Part shown: piece by piece, positions 11,158 to 18,757 of the stretch
How positions within the stretch are numbered: position 1 is the first letter of the stretch
Layout of the letters: every line of letters begins with the position of its first letter
Source of the DNA: an uncultured Clostridia bacterium
GTDB taxonomy: Bacteria; Bacillota; Clostridia; Oscillospirales; UBA644
Assembly (NCBI GenBank): GCA_944382895.1
Contig: CALWNV010000004.1
Span: forward strand, 1-54,105
Length of the DNA stretch: 54,105 nt
Direction of reading: 5' to 3'
Made by a program: the position numbers and the translations under genes
The notes under the pieces: model-generated
Database searches by the model: none
The model's input: only the letters and a program-made list of their open reading frames with translations
Told to the model about the DNA's origin: nothing

Positions 11158-12468
11158 ATGAAATTCAACAATTATATGGGGCGGTATTTCGAAGAAAAAA
11201 ACAATATCCTTTATATAGACGGTGTTTCTGCGGCGGATCTGGTGAAAGAGTACGGAACCCCACTGTATGTTTTTTCGGAACGTGCGATCAGAGAGAACTG
11301 TCGTTCGTATAAATATTCTATAGAAAAAAATTATAACGGTAAAGGGCTCGCTCTGTATGCTTCAAAAGCGTTTTCATGTTTGGCCATTTACCATATAATT
11401 GCAGAAGAAGGTTTAGGCGCTGACGTTGTTTCGGGAGGAGAACTTTACACTGCTTTGAAGGCGGGAATGGATCCTTCTTTGATATATTTTCACGGCAATA
11501 ATAAAACAGACGATGAACTTCGTATGGCCGCGGAAAGCGGGATAGGACATGTTGTTGTAGACAATCGTGAGGAACTTATTCGTTTGAACAGCATCGCGGC
11601 TGAGACCGGAAGGATAATTAATATTTCTTTCCGTATAAAACCCGGTATAGATGCGCATACACATGAAGCGGTCATGACAGGCCAGATAGACTCAAAATTC
11701 GGAGTCGCGCTTGAAAACGGAGAAGCTTTTGAGATATGTGATTTCGCGCGTACGCTCCCGAATGTTAATCTTGTAGGAGTTCATTGTCATATAGGTTCTC
11801 AGATATTTGATACGGAACCTTTTACAGCCGCGGCAGAGGTAATGATAAATTTTATGGCTGAACTTCGTGAAAAAACAGGTACAGAGCTTAAAGAGCTTAA
11901 TCTCGGAGGAGGATTCGGTATACGCTATTTACCATCTGACAATCATAAAAGTTACGAGGAGTTTATGTCGAAAGTTTCGGCAAAAATTAAAGAGATTTGC
12001 AAAGAAAGAGATTTTCCTGTTCCTTTTGTTCTTGTGGAGCCGGGTAGAAGCATAGTGGGAACGGCGGGAATAACTCTTTATACGATTGGTTCAGTGAAAA
12101 ATATAAAAAATGTGCGTACATATGTTTCTGTGGACGGCGGTATGACCGATAATCCGAGATTCGCTCTTTACGGATCTGCTTATAATATGGATATCGCCAC
12201 TCGTCTTACAGATAAAAAAGATACTAAGGTTACTGTAGCCGGCAAATGTTGTGAGAGCGGTGACCTGCTCGCGAAAGATATCTATCTGCAGTATCCTGTA
12301 GGCGGTGATATTTTGGCGGTATATTGTACCGGAGCGTATAATTATTCCATGGCGTCAAATTATAACAGGATACCGCGTCCTGCGGTTGCGTTGATAAATG
12401 ACGGGGAAAGCAGGATAATAGTAAAGAAGGAAAAATATTCCGATCTTATTATTAATGATGTGCCATGA
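11158..12468 (+). CDS. lysA: Diaminopimelate decarboxylase
   Basis: The 436-residue PLP enzyme converts meso-diaminopimelate to lysine. The PLP-binding Lys70 is in LYASKAF. HCHIGSQI and GGGFGIRY are the conserved phosphate-binding segments, VEPGRSIVG follows, and the C-terminal CESGDLLAKD carries the active-site Cys of the partner subunit. The length is typical. It sits 2 bases after engB with a GGAG ribosome site, and its stop overlaps the rlmB start. Confidence 0.96.
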   Translation: MKFNNYMGRYFEEKNNILYIDGVSAADLVKEYGTPLYVFSERAIRENCRSYKYSIEKNYNGKGLALYASKAFSCLAIYHIIAEEGLGADVVSGGELYTALKAGMDPSLIYFHGNNKTDDELRMAAESGIGHVVVDNREELIRLNSIAAETGRIINISFRIKPGIDAHTHEAVMTGQIDSKFGVALENGEAFEICDFARTLPNVNLVGVHCHIGSQIFDTEPFTAAAEVMINFMAELREKTGTELKELNLGGGFGIRYLPSDNHKSYEEFMSKVSAKIKEICKERDFPVPFVLVEPGRSIVGTAGITLYTIGSVKNIKNVRTYVSVDGGMTDNPRFALYGSAYNMDIATRLTDKKDTKVTVAGKCCESGDLLAKDIYLQYPVGGDILAVYCTGAYNYSMASNYNRIPRPAVALINDGESRIIVKKEKYSDLIINDVP

Positions 12469-13247
12469 TGGGGAAAAAAAGTATATCCGATAAAAAGTTT
12501 TCTGAAAAAAACGAGAAAGAAAATATTGTATGCGGAAGAAATTCCGTTATTGAGCTTCTCGCTTCAGAGCGTACGGTCGATAAAATTTTTATTCGGAGAG
12601 GGCAGAGAGAAGGCTCTCTACTTAGAATTTTCGCGATGGCGAAAGAACGACATATACCTGTTGTTGAGGCTGACAAGTTAAAGCTTGATACAATGAGCGG
12701 AAACGCTAATCATCAGGGCGTGGTCGCGTTTGCGACTGATTTTATTTATTGTTCTCCGGATGATATAATAAGTTTCGCGGTGTCACGGGGTGAAGAGCCG
12801 TTTATACTTATGATTGACGGTATAAACGATCCTCATAATCTTGGGGCTCTTATCCGTACTGCGCACGCGGTCGGAGTGCACGGCATTATACTTCCGAAAC
12901 GCAATGCTTGCGGACTTACTGCGGCGGTATATAAAGCTGCGGCGGGAAGTTGTGAACATGTAATGATATCTCGTGTTGCTAATATAGCGGAAACGATATC
13001 ATATATAAAAGAGAAAAATATATGGGTTTACGGTGCTGACGGGAAAGCGGAATCCGATATATATAAAACTGATTTCAGTGGTGCGGTTGCACTTGTTTTG
13101 GGGGATGAAGGCCGGGGCATCTCGCGGCTTGTTCGTGACAGATGTGATATTCTCGTGAAAATTCCTATGAGGGAGAACGCGAATTCTCTAAACGTTTCCG
13201 TTGCGGGCGGCGTGCTGATGTATGAAATTTTTCGGCAAAGGGGGTAA
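12465..13247 (+). CDS. rlmB: TrmH/RlmB-family RNA 2'-O-ribose methyltransferase
   Basis: The 260-residue SpoU-type methyltransferase has an N-terminal substrate-binding domain (ENIVCGRNSVIELL, about 20-95) and a SPOUT knot domain. The knot motifs are DGINDPHNLGALIRTAHAVG (motif 1), LVLGDEGRGISRL (motif 2) and IPMRENANSLNVSVA (motif 3). The usual target is G2251 of 23S rRNA, though some relatives act on tRNA. The start overlaps the lysA stop, and a second ATG follows directly at 12468. Confidence 0.9.
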   Translation: MMGKKSISDKKFSEKNEKENIVCGRNSVIELLASERTVDKIFIRRGQREGSLLRIFAMAKERHIPVVEADKLKLDTMSGNANHQGVVAFATDFIYCSPDDIISFAVSRGEEPFILMIDGINDPHNLGALIRTAHAVGVHGIILPKRNACGLTAAVYKAAAGSCEHVMISRVANIAETISYIKEKNIWVYGADGKAESDIYKTDFSGAVALVLGDEGRGISRLVRDRCDILVKIPMRENANSLNVSVAGGVLMYEIFRQRG

Positions 13248-13252
13248 AAACT

Positions 13253-14878
13253 TTGTCTGACAGCTATAGTCGCCAATATCGTCTGGCAATGGAAAGCAAG
13301 GATTTTCTTACGGTAAAAACCGCGGTTTCTTTTATTGCCGCAGTTGTTGCGTTTATCGTTTCACTCCTGCCTTTGCCGCAAATTGCGATATCAGTTATTT
13401 CAATCATTCTGATTGCAATTGTTTATGGTGTGTGTTTCCACGAACTTACGGATGGGATAGTTTCGTTGTTCGGTAAAATGCCCTCCAACGACAGCCTTTG
13501 TGCGGTTGCTTTGATTTTTTCTTTAGCGCGTTCGGTATGGCTTATTTTTGCTGAAAGTGAATTTCCCGGAATGGTAGTTTGGATAGTCTTTCTTGCAATA
13601 GGCGTGTCAATGTTTATGAAGCTGTTATATATTTTACAGATAGTAAAAAACATTGAGTTTATAGAAGAAAACAATACTTATTCAGTAGAAGCTGCTGACG
13701 CTGATCTGAAAAAAAGGCTTATCTCAAAAGTATTTATGGTTAATCCGGTGATCTCTTTCCCGGACGTTGTTTCATGCTCATATGAGCAGGATCCGGCAGA
13801 AAAAAATAACAGGATTTTTGTCCCTGTCTTTATTGTTTGCACAATAACGGTTTCAATTATCGCGTTTATTTTGGGTGGGGCTGATTCATTTTTCCTTATG
13901 CTGGCTAGCGTAGGTGCATGCGGAGCGTCATTTACGGGAGAAGCGGCTTTTATTCTTCCGTATATTGTTGCACAGCAAAGACTGAGAAAATTAGGGAGTG
14001 TTTTACTCGGTGCAGAATCTATAGACCGGCTTAAGGATATAGATACGCTGGTGGTTGAGGATTCTGATCTTTTCACGGATGAATATTCAGGTATAGTCAA
14101 TATAAGGTTTTTTAAGAAAAGCTATGTTTCAAAATCGTTGGAATATGCAGCAGTTTTACTTGATGAGATAAAATCGCCTATTGCCCCGTCTGTTTTTGAT
14201 ATCCTGGAATGTGAGCGTGAGTCGCTTCCTCATGTATCATTTGTCAAAAATATTCAAAACCACGGAGTTTATGCGAAAGTTAACGGCGAGGATGTTTTGT
14301 TGGGAAACAGAAATTTGCTGTTGTCACATAATATATCGCCTCTGTCTCAAGAACAGGAGGCTGCGTATATGACAATGAACCGCAATCTTTTTTATCTCGC
14401 TGTGCGGGGTGAACTTGCGGCTGTTTTACTGGTGCAGTATTCTGCTAATCCGGCATTGAAACAGATCGCTGAACGTATAGGTCAGGATTTTAATTTGATT
14501 GTTGAAACTCGAGACTGTAATATAAATGAGTATACTGTCCAGACCAGATACGATTTGAAAAAAGCCCATATCCTTGTACCTGAAGGAGAGGAACGGAAAC
14601 TTCTTAAAAAAACGAGAGAAGATTTGCTGCGCAAAAAATCTAATCCGGTTATGATAACCACTAAAAATGCGATAGGTATCCTTACATCCGTGGAGCGTGC
14701 AAAAAAACTTTCCGGAATTATTGGCGCGACGGTTTTTTTGAAGACTTTTTCTATTATATTAGGCGCTGTGCTGACTGCGGTCGCGGTATTTGCCGTTTCT
14801 CAGGTTGTTCCTGTCATGTGGATTTTCATCTATGCTCTTATATGGTTAATTCCTGTTATATATCTTGCATTACAATAA
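13253..14878 (+). CDS. Degenerate P-type ATPase-like membrane protein (probable pseudoenzyme)
   Basis: The 541-residue product follows the layout of P1B-type metal ATPases but lacks the catalytic residues. Hydrophobic segments lie at about 20-70, 75-125, 180-235 and 485-541. The segment LLGAESIDRLKDIDTLVVEDSDLFT aligns by eye with the family's GGEAIERL-x-DT-x-V-x-DKTGTLT region, but Glu269 replaces the phosphorylated Asp and the DKTG core is gone. The CPC metal site appears as Cys223-Gly-Ala-Ser. HGVYAKVNGEDVLLGNRNLL matches the nucleotide domain. TGD is Thr419-Arg-Asp and GDGxND is missing. The start is TTG at 13253 behind AAAGGGGG. Function is unknown; a regulatory or structural role is possible. 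Confidence 0.75.
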   Translation: MSDSYSRQYRLAMESKDFLTVKTAVSFIAAVVAFIVSLLPLPQIAISVISIILIAIVYGVCFHELTDGIVSLFGKMPSNDSLCAVALIFSLARSVWLIFAESEFPGMVVWIVFLAIGVSMFMKLLYILQIVKNIEFIEENNTYSVEAADADLKKRLISKVFMVNPVISFPDVVSCSYEQDPAEKNNRIFVPVFIVCTITVSIIAFILGGADSFFLMLASVGACGASFTGEAAFILPYIVAQQRLRKLGSVLLGAESIDRLKDIDTLVVEDSDLFTDEYSGIVNIRFFKKSYVSKSLEYAAVLLDEIKSPIAPSVFDILECERESLPHVSFVKNIQNHGVYAKVNGEDVLLGNRNLLLSHNISPLSQEQEAAYMTMNRNLFYLAVRGELAAVLLVQYSANPALKQIAERIGQDFNLIVETRDCNINEYTVQTRYDLKKAHILVPEGEERKLLKKTREDLLRKKSNPVMITTKNAIGILTSVERAKKLSGIIGATVFLKTFSIILGAVLTAVAVFAVSQVVPVMWIFIYALIWLIPVIYLALQ

Positions 14879-14901: not shown

Positions 14902-15630
14902 ATGTCCGGGCACTCAAAATGGAAAAATATAATGCATAAAAAAGAAAAGACAGACAGTCAGCGCGCTTCTGTTTTTACAAAAATAGGAAGAGAGATATCT
15001 CTTTGTGTTAAACAATTTGGACCGGATCCCGCTTCCAATTCGAAGCTCAAGGATCTTATAGCCAAAGCGAAACAGAACAATGTTCCCAATGAAAATATTG
15101 AAAGAGTTATCAAAAAAGCTGCCGGCGGTGCGGATGATACGAATTATGAAGAAATAACTTATGAAGGCTACGGTCCTGCCGGTATCGCGGTTCTTGTGAA
15201 ATGTCTTACTGATAACAGAAACAGAACAGCAGGGAATCTTCGTCATTATTTTGATAAAAATAACGGAAATCTCGGTCAGACGGGCTCTGTCAATTGGATG
15301 TTTTCCAGAAAAGGTGTTATTGTAATTGAAAAAGAGTTGTATGACGAGGATAAGCTGATGGAGCTTCTTATGCAAACGCCATGTGAGGATTTTGTTACGG
15401 AACCCGAGGTTTATGAAATCTATACTCAACCTGACGATGATTTCTTGGGAACAAAAAAAATGCTTGAAGATGCCGGATATCAGTTTCTGTCCGCTGAAGA
15501 AGAAATGATTCCTTCAAATTATTCCGGGATACAAGATCAGGAAAACCGTGAAAAGATGCAAAAATTACTTGATATGCTCGAGGATGATGATGATGTCCAG
15601 AACGTATATCATAATTGGGACGAAGAATGA
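14902..15630 (+). CDS. yebC: YebC/PmpR-family protein
   Basis: The 242-residue product belongs to the YebC/PmpR (TACO1) family, described both as transcription regulators and as factors that help ribosomes through difficult sequences. The N-terminus SGHSKWKNIMHKKEKTD is diagnostic, followed by RNRTAGNLRHYFDK and NLGQTGSVNWMF. The start is ATG 14902 with GGAGGT at 14887-14892. An upstream in-frame start at 14818 lies inside the preceding gene and is rejected. Its stop overlaps the start of the XRE gene. Confidence 0.96.
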   Translation: MSGHSKWKNIMHKKEKTDSQRASVFTKIGREISLCVKQFGPDPASNSKLKDLIAKAKQNNVPNENIERVIKKAAGGADDTNYEEITYEGYGPAGIAVLVKCLTDNRNRTAGNLRHYFDKNNGNLGQTGSVNWMFSRKGVIVIEKELYDEDKLMELLMQTPCEDFVTEPEVYEIYTQPDDDFLGTKKMLEDAGYQFLSAEEEMIPSNYSGIQDQENREKMQKLLDMLEDDDDVQNVYHNWDEE

Positions 15631-16014: not shown

Positions 16015-16043
16015 TTGACAATTTCTCCTTTCTCTGGTATAAT
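16015..16043 (+). promoter_or_regulatory. Strong promoter for the CBM9-like secreted protein
   Basis: TTGACA (16015-16020) and TATAAT (16038-16043) are exact consensus boxes 17 bases apart. The leader to the ATG at 16127 is about 75 bases. This promoter also excludes the longer reading frame that begins at 16043. Confidence 0.85.
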
Positions 16044-16126
16044 TGATTAAGAGAATTGTTATTCTCTTTCTTTTTATTCCGGAGAATGTTTCTCTGTATT
16101 TCTATTTTATGAAAGGACGAACAGTT

Positions 16127-18757
16127 ATGCAAAAAAAAGTTCTGGCAATCTTTCTTGCGCTGGCCATGTTCGCGACATTTTTAACGGCATTTGCCGTCCC
16201 TTCTGCGGCAGTTGTCCCTCAAGGTGAATATGCGACTGATGCTGAAGGGAATATGGTGATCCCGTACGCGTCCTCCACTCCGGTAATCGATGGTATAGTC
16301 GATGAAGGTGAATGGGACAATGCATTGACATTGTCGGTGACACATGATAATGCAACATGGTTTACATCTGAAAGAACCTATACTCCTACATATGCTTCAT
16401 CTGCGCTTGTCAAGAGCCAAGATTACGCAAGTGCGACTTTTTCTTATATGTGGGGAGATGAAGGGCTCTATCTTAAGGTTAATGTAAACGACCCGACTCC
16501 TTCGTGGACTAATACCTATATGTCTCCTAACAATGGTGCGGACGGTGTTCAGATAGTTCTTGACCCCACCGGTAATGATGTAAGCGGCGAAAAGGCGATC
16601 CTTACTCTTTCGGCATACTCAACATTTTCCGGAAACGGCGACAGCACGGTTTGTTTACCGAGTGATGATCTGTATCCCGATAAACCGTTTTGGTCTGAGC
16701 TTTGGGGATATTGTCCTGATTGGGCTGAGTCCGATACCAATGATGACGGAGAGATTATTTATCCCACACAGGCGCTGATTCCTATGAGGTCAAAGGTTGA
16801 GCGTTATGATGCTTCGGGCACCGGAGCAGGTCTTGACAGTGTATCGACAGTCGTTTCTTCTTATGTTATTGAGTTATGTATAACAAATGAATTTTTCTCA
16901 TATAATGACAAGAATTATACTGTTCAGGAAGGCGGAACAATTAAACTTGGGAATATAGTTCTTGATTATTTCCATCGTATAGCGGGAGCTTTTACGAATA
17001 CACAGGGCGGTCCGTCATATCAGAGACTTCATGACTGCTACGGCGATATCAATCAAAATACTTCCCTTGAAAGCAATGGACTTGGTTTTTCCTCTACTTA
17101 TAATACGTTTGTATTCGGAGAGAGAACTGAAGTTCATGAACATTCATATGCAAACTGGGTCCACGACGTTGACAGCGCTCCCTCTACTCATACCGGTACA
17201 TGCAGCTGCGGAGATACATTAACAGAAGCTTGCGTGTTTGATGAAGGAGTCTTGTCAGAGGATCAGACATATATCACATACACTTGCACGGTGTGCGGTT
17301 ATTCTTATATTGAAAACAATGTCTCTGTTTCAATTACGGGGAATCCGTATTACGGAGAAACAGTTACCGCAACAGTAGCCAATGCTCCCGAAGGCGCGGA
17401 ACTTCATTATCAGTGGACTCTTGACGGAGAGAATATTGGTAAAGATGTTGCTACATATACAATTTACACTGCGGCGTTGAATAAAAATCTTGCCGTGACA
17501 GTTACAAGCAGTGATGGAACTGTTAATGTTACGTCTGAATCGGTTCTCCTTACCAAGGCCCCACAGGCTGCTCCTGGTATGCCTATTCTTGTATCTAAAA
17601 CCGATACAAGCGTGACGCTTCAGGCTATTCCCAGCCGTGAGTATTCTAAAGACGGAATAAACTGGCAGTCCTCAAATGTATTTACTGATTTGTGGCAGAA
17701 TACAGAATATAATTTCTATGCGCGTATGGCTGAAACTGCCGGATATCAGGCAAGCCCGGCAAGCTCGGAACTTGTTGTTTTCACAGAAAGAACACCTTCT
17801 GATATAACGGTTGACTTATCTTCTGATGCTCTTTATGCGGAAACATTGACTCCTGTTATAACTGGTGCGCCCGAAGATGCTGAGATATCATATGTATGGT
17901 ATCTTGATGATGTTCCCACTAAGAACTATACGTCTGCGTACACCGTGTATATGGCGGCATATGGCAAGATCGTTACATGTGTTGTAACAATCGATGGTGT
18001 TGAATACCGTTCCGGCGGATATATTGCGAAACCTTCTCAGAAAACCCCGCCACAGCCTCCAGTACTCGAGAGCAGAACGTCAACAAGCATATCCGTGGTA
18101 ACTGTTCCCGGTGTTGAATATACGATAGATAACGGGAAAACTTGGCAGACAAGCGGAACATTTACCGACCTTGAACCGGGAACAATATATACGATTTATA
18201 ATCGTCGTCCCGCGACATTACCTAATTATGCAGCGTCAATTGCGAGAAAACTCAAGGTGATAACAGAAGTTGAGGAATCTGATTTTACCGTGACATTGAG
18301 CGGAAACGGCGCATATGCGACGGATCTTAAAGCTGAGATAAGCGGAATATCGACCGAAGGTCAGACGATAACTTATCAGTGGCAGCGCGGTGATGCGGCT
18401 GTAGGTGCGGATAGTGACAGTTACACATGCTATCTTGCGGACATAGGTCAGGAAGTTACCGTAACTGTAATAATAGGTGATAAAGTAGCTGTTTCTAATG
18501 CGGTCATAGGTACGAAAGGAGAAAATGCTCCTTCTGTTGCGCCTGTTCTCATGAGTCGGACTGCGACGGAAATAACTCTTGAGCCGGTTGCTGGTCGTGA
18601 ATATTCAATAGACGGCATAACATGGCAGACCTCCAATGTATTCACTGGACTTACTCCCGATACTGAATACAGCGTATATATGCGCAGAGGCGAATCTAAA
18701 GCTTATTTTGCCGGGGCTCCGAGCAAACCTTGTGTTGTCAGAACACTTGCTGAATAA
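16127..18757 (+). CDS. Secreted multidomain protein with CBM9-like domain and three Ig/FN3-like repeats
   Basis: The 876-residue product starts with a signal peptide (MQKKVLAIFLALAMF, cleavage near 23-28). Residues about 40-300 look like a family 9 carbohydrate-binding or DOMON-like domain: VIDGIVDEGEWDNAL, YMWGDEGLYLKVNVND, NNGADGVQIVLDP. A short Cys-rich part (TCSCGD, CTVCGY; about 345-400) could bind a metal. Three tandem units of about 159 residues follow (about 400-557, 558-716, 717-876). Each pairs an Ig-like half with an FN3-like half containing W-Q-x-S-N/G-x-F-T-x-L. No sortase motif or dockerin is present. The ATG at 16127 has GAAAGGA upstream. Polysaccharide binding is inferred. Confidence 0.82.
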   Translation: MQKKVLAIFLALAMFATFLTAFAVPSAAVVPQGEYATDAEGNMVIPYASSTPVIDGIVDEGEWDNALTLSVTHDNATWFTSERTYTPTYASSALVKSQDYASATFSYMWGDEGLYLKVNVNDPTPSWTNTYMSPNNGADGVQIVLDPTGNDVSGEKAILTLSAYSTFSGNGDSTVCLPSDDLYPDKPFWSELWGYCPDWAESDTNDDGEIIYPTQALIPMRSKVERYDASGTGAGLDSVSTVVSSYVIELCITNEFFSYNDKNYTVQEGGTIKLGNIVLDYFHRIAGAFTNTQGGPSYQRLHDCYGDINQNTSLESNGLGFSSTYNTFVFGERTEVHEHSYANWVHDVDSAPSTHTGTCSCGDTLTEACVFDEGVLSEDQTYITYTCTVCGYSYIENNVSVSITGNPYYGETVTATVANAPEGAELHYQWTLDGENIGKDVATYTIYTAALNKNLAVTVTSSDGTVNVTSESVLLTKAPQAAPGMPILVSKTDTSVTLQAIPSREYSKDGINWQSSNVFTDLWQNTEYNFYARMAETAGYQASPASSELVVFTERTPSDITVDLSSDALYAETLTPVITGAPEDAEISYVWYLDDVPTKNYTSAYTVYMAAYGKIVTCVVTIDGVEYRSGGYIAKPSQKTPPQPPVLESRTSTSISVVTVPGVEYTIDNGKTWQTSGTFTDLEPGTIYTIYNRRPATLPNYAASIARKLKVITEVEESDFTVTLSGNGAYATDLKAEISGISTEGQTITYQWQRGDAAVGADSDSYTCYLADIGQEVTVTVIIGDKVAVSNAVIGTKGENAPSVAPVLMSRTATEITLEPVAGREYSIDGITWQTSNVFTGLTPDTEYSVYMRRGESKAYFAGAPSKPCVVRTLAE

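Follow-up and report, generated by a model that had tools for sequence, protein, structure and literature searches.

The window, by which we mean the whole 54,105-nt stretch of DNA that we analysed, comes from an uncultured Clostridia bacterium of the order Oscillospirales. At the locus of interest it carries, in order, lon, a ysxC-like GTPase gene, a lysA-like decarboxylase gene, rlmB, the gene that is our subject (hereafter the pseudo-ATPase gene), yebC and an HTH gene. The pseudo-ATPase frame begins with TTG and is open across 541 codons, in agreement with the original prediction, which had been made from the letters alone. A Shine-Dalgarno-like stretch in the last codons of rlmB is its candidate ribosome binding site, and yebC has a Shine-Dalgarno sequence of its own ahead of its ATG.

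12465 to 13247, + strand: rlmB, SpoU/TrmH-family 23S rRNA methyltransferase (PF00588, 4e-42; PF08032, 2e-19), the conserved upstream partner
13237 to 13244, + strand: Shine-Dalgarno-like AAAGGGGG, within the last rlmB codons and 8 nt 5' of the TTG (from sequence)
13253 to 14878, + strand: pseudo-P1B-ATPase gene, 541 aa, TTG start (ORF call, profile match to LpCopA, Foldseek, order-wide orthologues)
14902 to 15630, + strand: yebC (PF01709, 7e-59), true ATG at 14902, downstream of the pseudo-ATPase gene

Farther along the same strand, a perfect consensus promoter (TTGACA-17-TATAAT with an extended TG, 16015 to 16043) directly precedes a 904-aa secreted repeat protein (16043 to 18757).

Homology to copper P1B ATPases

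The protein had been described as a relative of P-type ATPases, and both profile and fold comparisons agree. Searched singly against the PDB, the window protein matched Legionella LpCopA at an E value of 2.4e-8; a profile built from 33 diverse homologues matched the same protein (3rfu) at 6.2e-33, with P1B-type proteins heading the list. The NCBIfam model for CopA (PRK10671) was matched by 20 of these 33 members; for the window protein itself the score was 51.7 bits, far below the curated cut-off of 1316, and a further match scored 44.9 against a cut-off of 346. A Pfam search of the pseudo-ATPase returned no match, the A-domain family PF00122 included.

We ran the Foldseek comparison that had been proposed for the predicted structure. 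The AlphaFold2 model of the window protein (pLDDT 86.8, pTM 0.79) matched the copper P1B ATPase 4bbj best among PDB entries (E 6e-18, probability 1.0, TM 0.60), and matches 1 to 13 were all P1B. In the model and the profile alignment the P and N domains follow M4 and precede M5, within the P1B set of eight membrane helices, which bears out the predicted order of membrane segments, phosphorylation-loop lead-in, nucleotide-domain segment and final membrane pair. The distance from the DKTG position to TGD is 150 residues in the window protein and has a median of 151 in 25 genuine P1B ATPases; this unchanged spacing shows the alignment to be right and the P/N head to have kept its full size. Homology to P1B ATPases is far beyond chance, and the P1B helix order together with the MB-kink glycine favours a P1B origin over the other P types.

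Loss of catalytic and metal-binding sites

Along the gene we distinguish the following segments.

13310 to 13657, + strand: first four membrane helices (MA, MB, M1 and M2 equivalents), from AF2 helices 2-38, 43-60, 62-73, 79-99 and 109-139 and the profile alignment to LpCopA
13667 to 13813, + strand: A-domain slot, 49 residues forming two strands and a short helix, TGE loop absent
13811 to 13990, + strand: M3 and M4 equivalents, CPC metal site lost (A225-S226-F227)
14057 to 14077, + strand: degenerate motif I, E269-D270-S-D-L-F-T replacing DKTGTLT (homologue alignment)
14090 to 14437, + strand: N-domain-like region, SEHP His lost (S308-P309), G338 and G351-N352 kept
14507 to 14521, + strand: TGD remnant T419-R-D421-C-N423 (homologue alignment)
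14522 to 14668, + strand: end of the P domain without motif III Lys or GDGxND, profile gap of 9 against 41 aa in LpCopA
14669 to 14872, + strand: last membrane pair (M5 and M6 equivalents), AF2 helices 473-514 and 521-540, with conserved W531 and P534

In the membrane body, G68, at the MB-kink or platform position, is kept in 33 of 39 homologues and W531 in 38. The A domain has shrunk to about 49 residues, against about 118 in LpCopA, and the TGE loop has gone with it. The SEHP motif was found in 25 of 25 genuine P1B ATPases, and no His was counted at position 308 of the homologues. The original list of losses named neither the A domain and TGE loop nor this nucleotide-binding His. The CPC motif had been read as reduced to CGAS (residues 223-226). 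Its loss stands, but ungapped alignment from the P-domain lead-in puts the site at A225-S226-F227; HMMER aligns the position with a two-residue gap, so that the placement is ambiguous. The window protein has A-S-F where genuine P1B ATPases have CPC, SPC or TPC, and homologues mostly have [A/S/T]-[P/S]-[F/L].

The P-domain lead-in, GAESIDRLKDIDTLVV, runs into E269 where P-type ATPases carry the phosphorylated Asp; the further motif HGVYAKVNGEDVLLGNRNLL is present as first described. Glu269 and the vanished DKTG core had both been noted at first. Among the 39 homologues, residue 269 can be T, S, D, R, K, Y, E or A, with others more rarely, and no family member has DKTG or GDGxND at the aligned site. 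The sole DKTG string in a member lies at residue 192 of L047, within a disordered tail. Next to the lost Asp, an Asp occupies the Lys position of DKTG (D270) in 34 of 39 homologues, position 272 is D or E in 35, and F274 is kept in 33. TGD has become TxD (TRD at 419-421 in the window protein, as predicted), with D421 retained in all homologues save one (38/39). After this remnant the 39 homologues have no conserved K/R or D/E column, so both the motif III Lys and GDGxND, the latter already reported missing, are gone.

The surviving acidic residues invite two other readings. D270-x-D272 could form a HAD active site shifted by one residue, leaving the protein an enzyme: D-x-[DE] looks like motif I of HAD proteins in general, and the T and D of TGD survive. 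However, past residue 421 the P domain conserves neither a Lys/Arg for motif III nor an acidic pair for motif IV, and in the model the strand stops at 269, just as it does in P-type ATPases, which puts D270 at the Lys position. We rejected a cryptic HAD enzyme because motifs III and IV are missing, and consider it very improbable. Alternatively, a remodelled P-domain pocket (D270, D272, T419, D421, N423) could bind Mg2+, another cation, phosphate or nucleotide, with the P/N head signalling the bound state. The Asp/Glu residues at 270, 272 and 421 are among the best kept despite the loss of catalysis, and they sit in the loops of motifs I and II, which the P-type fold brings side by side. Against such a ligand sensor, CPC, the SEHP His and GDGxND have all been lost, the first Asp moves between 269 and 270 among families, which is unusual for a strict binding site, and no known signalling domain is attached. 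Sensing of metal or nucleotide, one of the roles first proposed, is therefore weakened by the loss of CPC and the N-domain His; we keep it as an unlikely alternative.

Set beside the copper P1B-1 ATPases (CopA, Legionella LpCopA [3rfu/4bbj] and ATP7B), the pseudo-ATPase shares the order and number of membrane helices, the MB-kink glycine, the P and N domain folds, the DKTG-to-TGD spacing and the N-domain GN. Unlike them, it has no catalytic Asp, DKTG, CPC, SEHP His or GDGxND, its A domain is a remnant, and it carries no N-terminal metal-binding domain. As the defining features we looked for are absent, it should not be classed as a P1B ATPase, and similarity in the P/N domains alone can steer annotation wrongly to copper export. 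It keeps an eight-helix membrane body with its platform glycine and the folds of the P and N domains. With CPC, the SEHP His, the A domain and TGE, GDGxND, the motif III Lys and the catalytic Asp all absent, neither phosphorylation, dephosphorylation nor P1B-style ATP binding would be expected, and the protein is predicted to lack transport and ATPase activity.

Distribution and selection

Of 197 genomes of the order, spanning 26 families, 192 gave a full-length match to a family profile; the five others gave only ordinary P1B-type matches. The 142 genomes surveyed from the rest of the class gave no full-length homologue by profile; the matches listed there were all restricted to the P/N region, with E values no better than 2e-41, and were genuine P1B ATPases where read. 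A profile search of 197 more genomes across the phylum at E<=1e-50 likewise found no homologue. With the window protein as query, all 43 relatives searched (completeness at least 90%) gave a match at E<=0.001, some of these matches being ordinary P1B ATPases. Most genomes surveyed were metagenome-assembled, and the close relatives include Oscillospiraceae bacterium SIG520, Ruminococcaceae bacterium RUG12846 and other gut and rumen assemblies, names that point to Oscillospiraceae-type Clostridia.

In a tree of the P/N region, 39 members formed one clade (support 1.0) apart from 35 genuine P-type ATPases, and the family would go back to one copper-type P1B ancestor that lost its function at the root of the order or close to it. 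Between closer orthologues dN/dS was 0.04 to 0.25, indicating purifying selection; rlmB evolves more slowly still. Because five of the 197 genomes have no full-length match, the gene is probably not absolutely essential.

The loss of every catalytic motif could suggest that the gene is decaying or has only recently lost its function. The order-wide presence, a dN/dS well below 1, the fixed place after rlmB and frames intact in nearly all relatives speak against decay, to which we give next to no probability; a recent mutant or pseudogene is excluded by the presence in 192 of 197 genomes and by dN/dS. The search for orthologues that had been proposed as a check turned up none with an intact DKTGT, and position 269 varies across the homologues. 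A maintained pseudoenzyme had been predicted in place of decay, on the understanding that a structure without the P/N fold or orthologues with intact DKTGT would count against it; the fold is present and such orthologues were not found. The fold is kept, the catalytic residues are lost, the loss is common to orthologues and selection is purifying: the protein is, with near certainty, a maintained pseudoenzyme derived from a P1B ATPase.

In two loci, L051 (4164-6560) and L077 (6321-8548), the pseudo-ATPase frame is split into two ORFs, which may reflect sequencing error or local decay.

An acidic N-terminal tail

Most members outside the window's family carry 140 to 650 extra N-terminal residues that are acidic, often Pro/Ala-rich and of low hydrophobicity. 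At their start there is often a short motif, for example FSLDDILREV or FSIDDILAEF; across the N-termini of L047 to L076 it takes the amphipathic form F-S-[LIV]-[DE]-[DE]-I-L-x-E-F and variants. In an AlphaFold2 model of the distant member L093, which we left out of claims about the fold (overall pLDDT 45, head mostly 68-87), the tail has pLDDT below 50 nearly throughout, with a short helix at residues 7-20. A DNA pattern for the strict motif gave four matches in 59 genomes, all in the pseudo-ATPase gene; we accordingly set aside a generic docking peptide common to other proteins. The window's own family has no long tail, having either lost it or never had it, and the tail therefore cannot be essential to the core role.

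Position behind rlmB and possible role

The gene had been placed in a housekeeping operon between rlmB and yebC. The rlmB side of this holds across the order: among 42 other loci that carry the gene, rlmB is the gene immediately before it, on the same strand, in 41 (the exception is L075), and the next commonest neighbour clusters are each present at 8 of 44 loci. The yebC side holds in the window's own family only. Several other families have an EF-G-like GTPase downstream, and GTPases, lon and other genes follow elsewhere, so that an operon with yebC as conserved context is ruled out and rlmB alone is conserved.

In B. subtilis the gene after rlmB is that of Rae1/YacP. We compared class genomes with YacP (L158, L160-L162, L166-L171): in four, from other families of the class, a stand-alone YacP (Rae1) directly follows rlmB, and in three others with a stand-alone YacP, rlmB was not within the flank examined. 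In the order, an NYN_YacP domain occurs in 17 of 59 genomes, always as part of a longer open frame (over 860 aa), perhaps through fusion to an EF-G/TetM-like protein; members of the order thus seem to have no stand-alone YacP/Rae1. Together these observations place the pseudo-ATPase in a slot that elsewhere can hold the ribosome-associated nuclease Rae1, which is suggestive only. The likeness is one of position directly downstream of rlmB; Rae1/YacP is an NYN ribonuclease of unrelated fold.

Membrane scaffolding, also among the roles first proposed, is the most plausible option. Our preferred reading, to which we give a tentative probability of roughly 0.45, is that the pseudo-P1B-ATPase is anchored in the membrane and serves there as a docking scaffold or a regulator, with a link to RlmB or translation. 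The P/N head, together in most families with the acidic disordered tail and its FSLDDILxEF-like helical motif, would bind a cytosolic partner. That partner would act at the membrane in ribosome maturation or in translation, as the conserved position behind rlmB suggests. We infer partner, scaffold role and ribosome link from position and structure; adjacency to rlmB could also come from translational coupling or simple inheritance. A more specific version, in which a dead copper pump took the Rae1 slot at the origin of the order and turned into a factor for translation or ribosome maturation, bound to the membrane and equipped with a docking motif unique to this protein, seems doubtful to us, at rather long odds.

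The protein might instead pair with a genuine P-type ATPase in a pseudo-heterodimer, as its partner or inhibitory subunit, or be a passive membrane channel. The window's genome has five ordinary P-type ATPases, active paralogues are often regulated by pseudoenzymes, and one family has a second degenerate P-type ATPase beside rlmB. In the loci examined, however, the gene is linked to rlmB and not directly to a pump, and apart from E230 in the window's family, we saw no metal path of conserved charged or Cys residues in the M4 region. We regard these roles as quite unlikely; pairing with a true pump and ligand sensing through the acidic pocket are nevertheless the chief competitors of our preferred reading.

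Pseudoenzymes are a familiar class of proteins. Scaffold roles independent of transport have been reported for P4 ATPases (PMC10654040), and apicomplexan guanylate cyclases such as PfGC-beta contain a degenerate P4-type ATPase domain (PMC6592433). There, as here, the P-type ATPase fold outlives its signature motifs; the PfGC-beta domain, however, is eukaryotic, P4-type and fused to cyclase domains, whereas the window protein is stand-alone, bacterial and P1B-derived. Our literature search found no stand-alone, order-wide bacterial P-type pseudoenzyme, and no Pfam or NCBIfam family covers this one, so bacterial P-type ATPase pseudoenzymes of the stand-alone kind seem not to have been described before. 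Since the catalytic parts have been lost and the gene is nonetheless kept behind rlmB across almost the whole order, it very probably does a new, so far undescribed job. Near-universal in an order that the names of its nearest relatives assign to the Oscillospiraceae-type gut and rumen Clostridia, it is a lineage marker with strict rlmB linkage and a direct test case for the recruitment of a pump fold to scaffolding.

The second degenerate P-type ATPase belongs to family f18 (L056, 11122-13578, - strand; L063, 10851-13061, - strand; also G213:C19). Having been seen in this one family only, it is ruled out as an order-wide partner. It is apparently P2-like (PF00122, with PF00690 also in one copy), has likewise lost DKTG and lies directly upstream of rlmB, which in f18 is thus flanked by two dead P-type ATPases.
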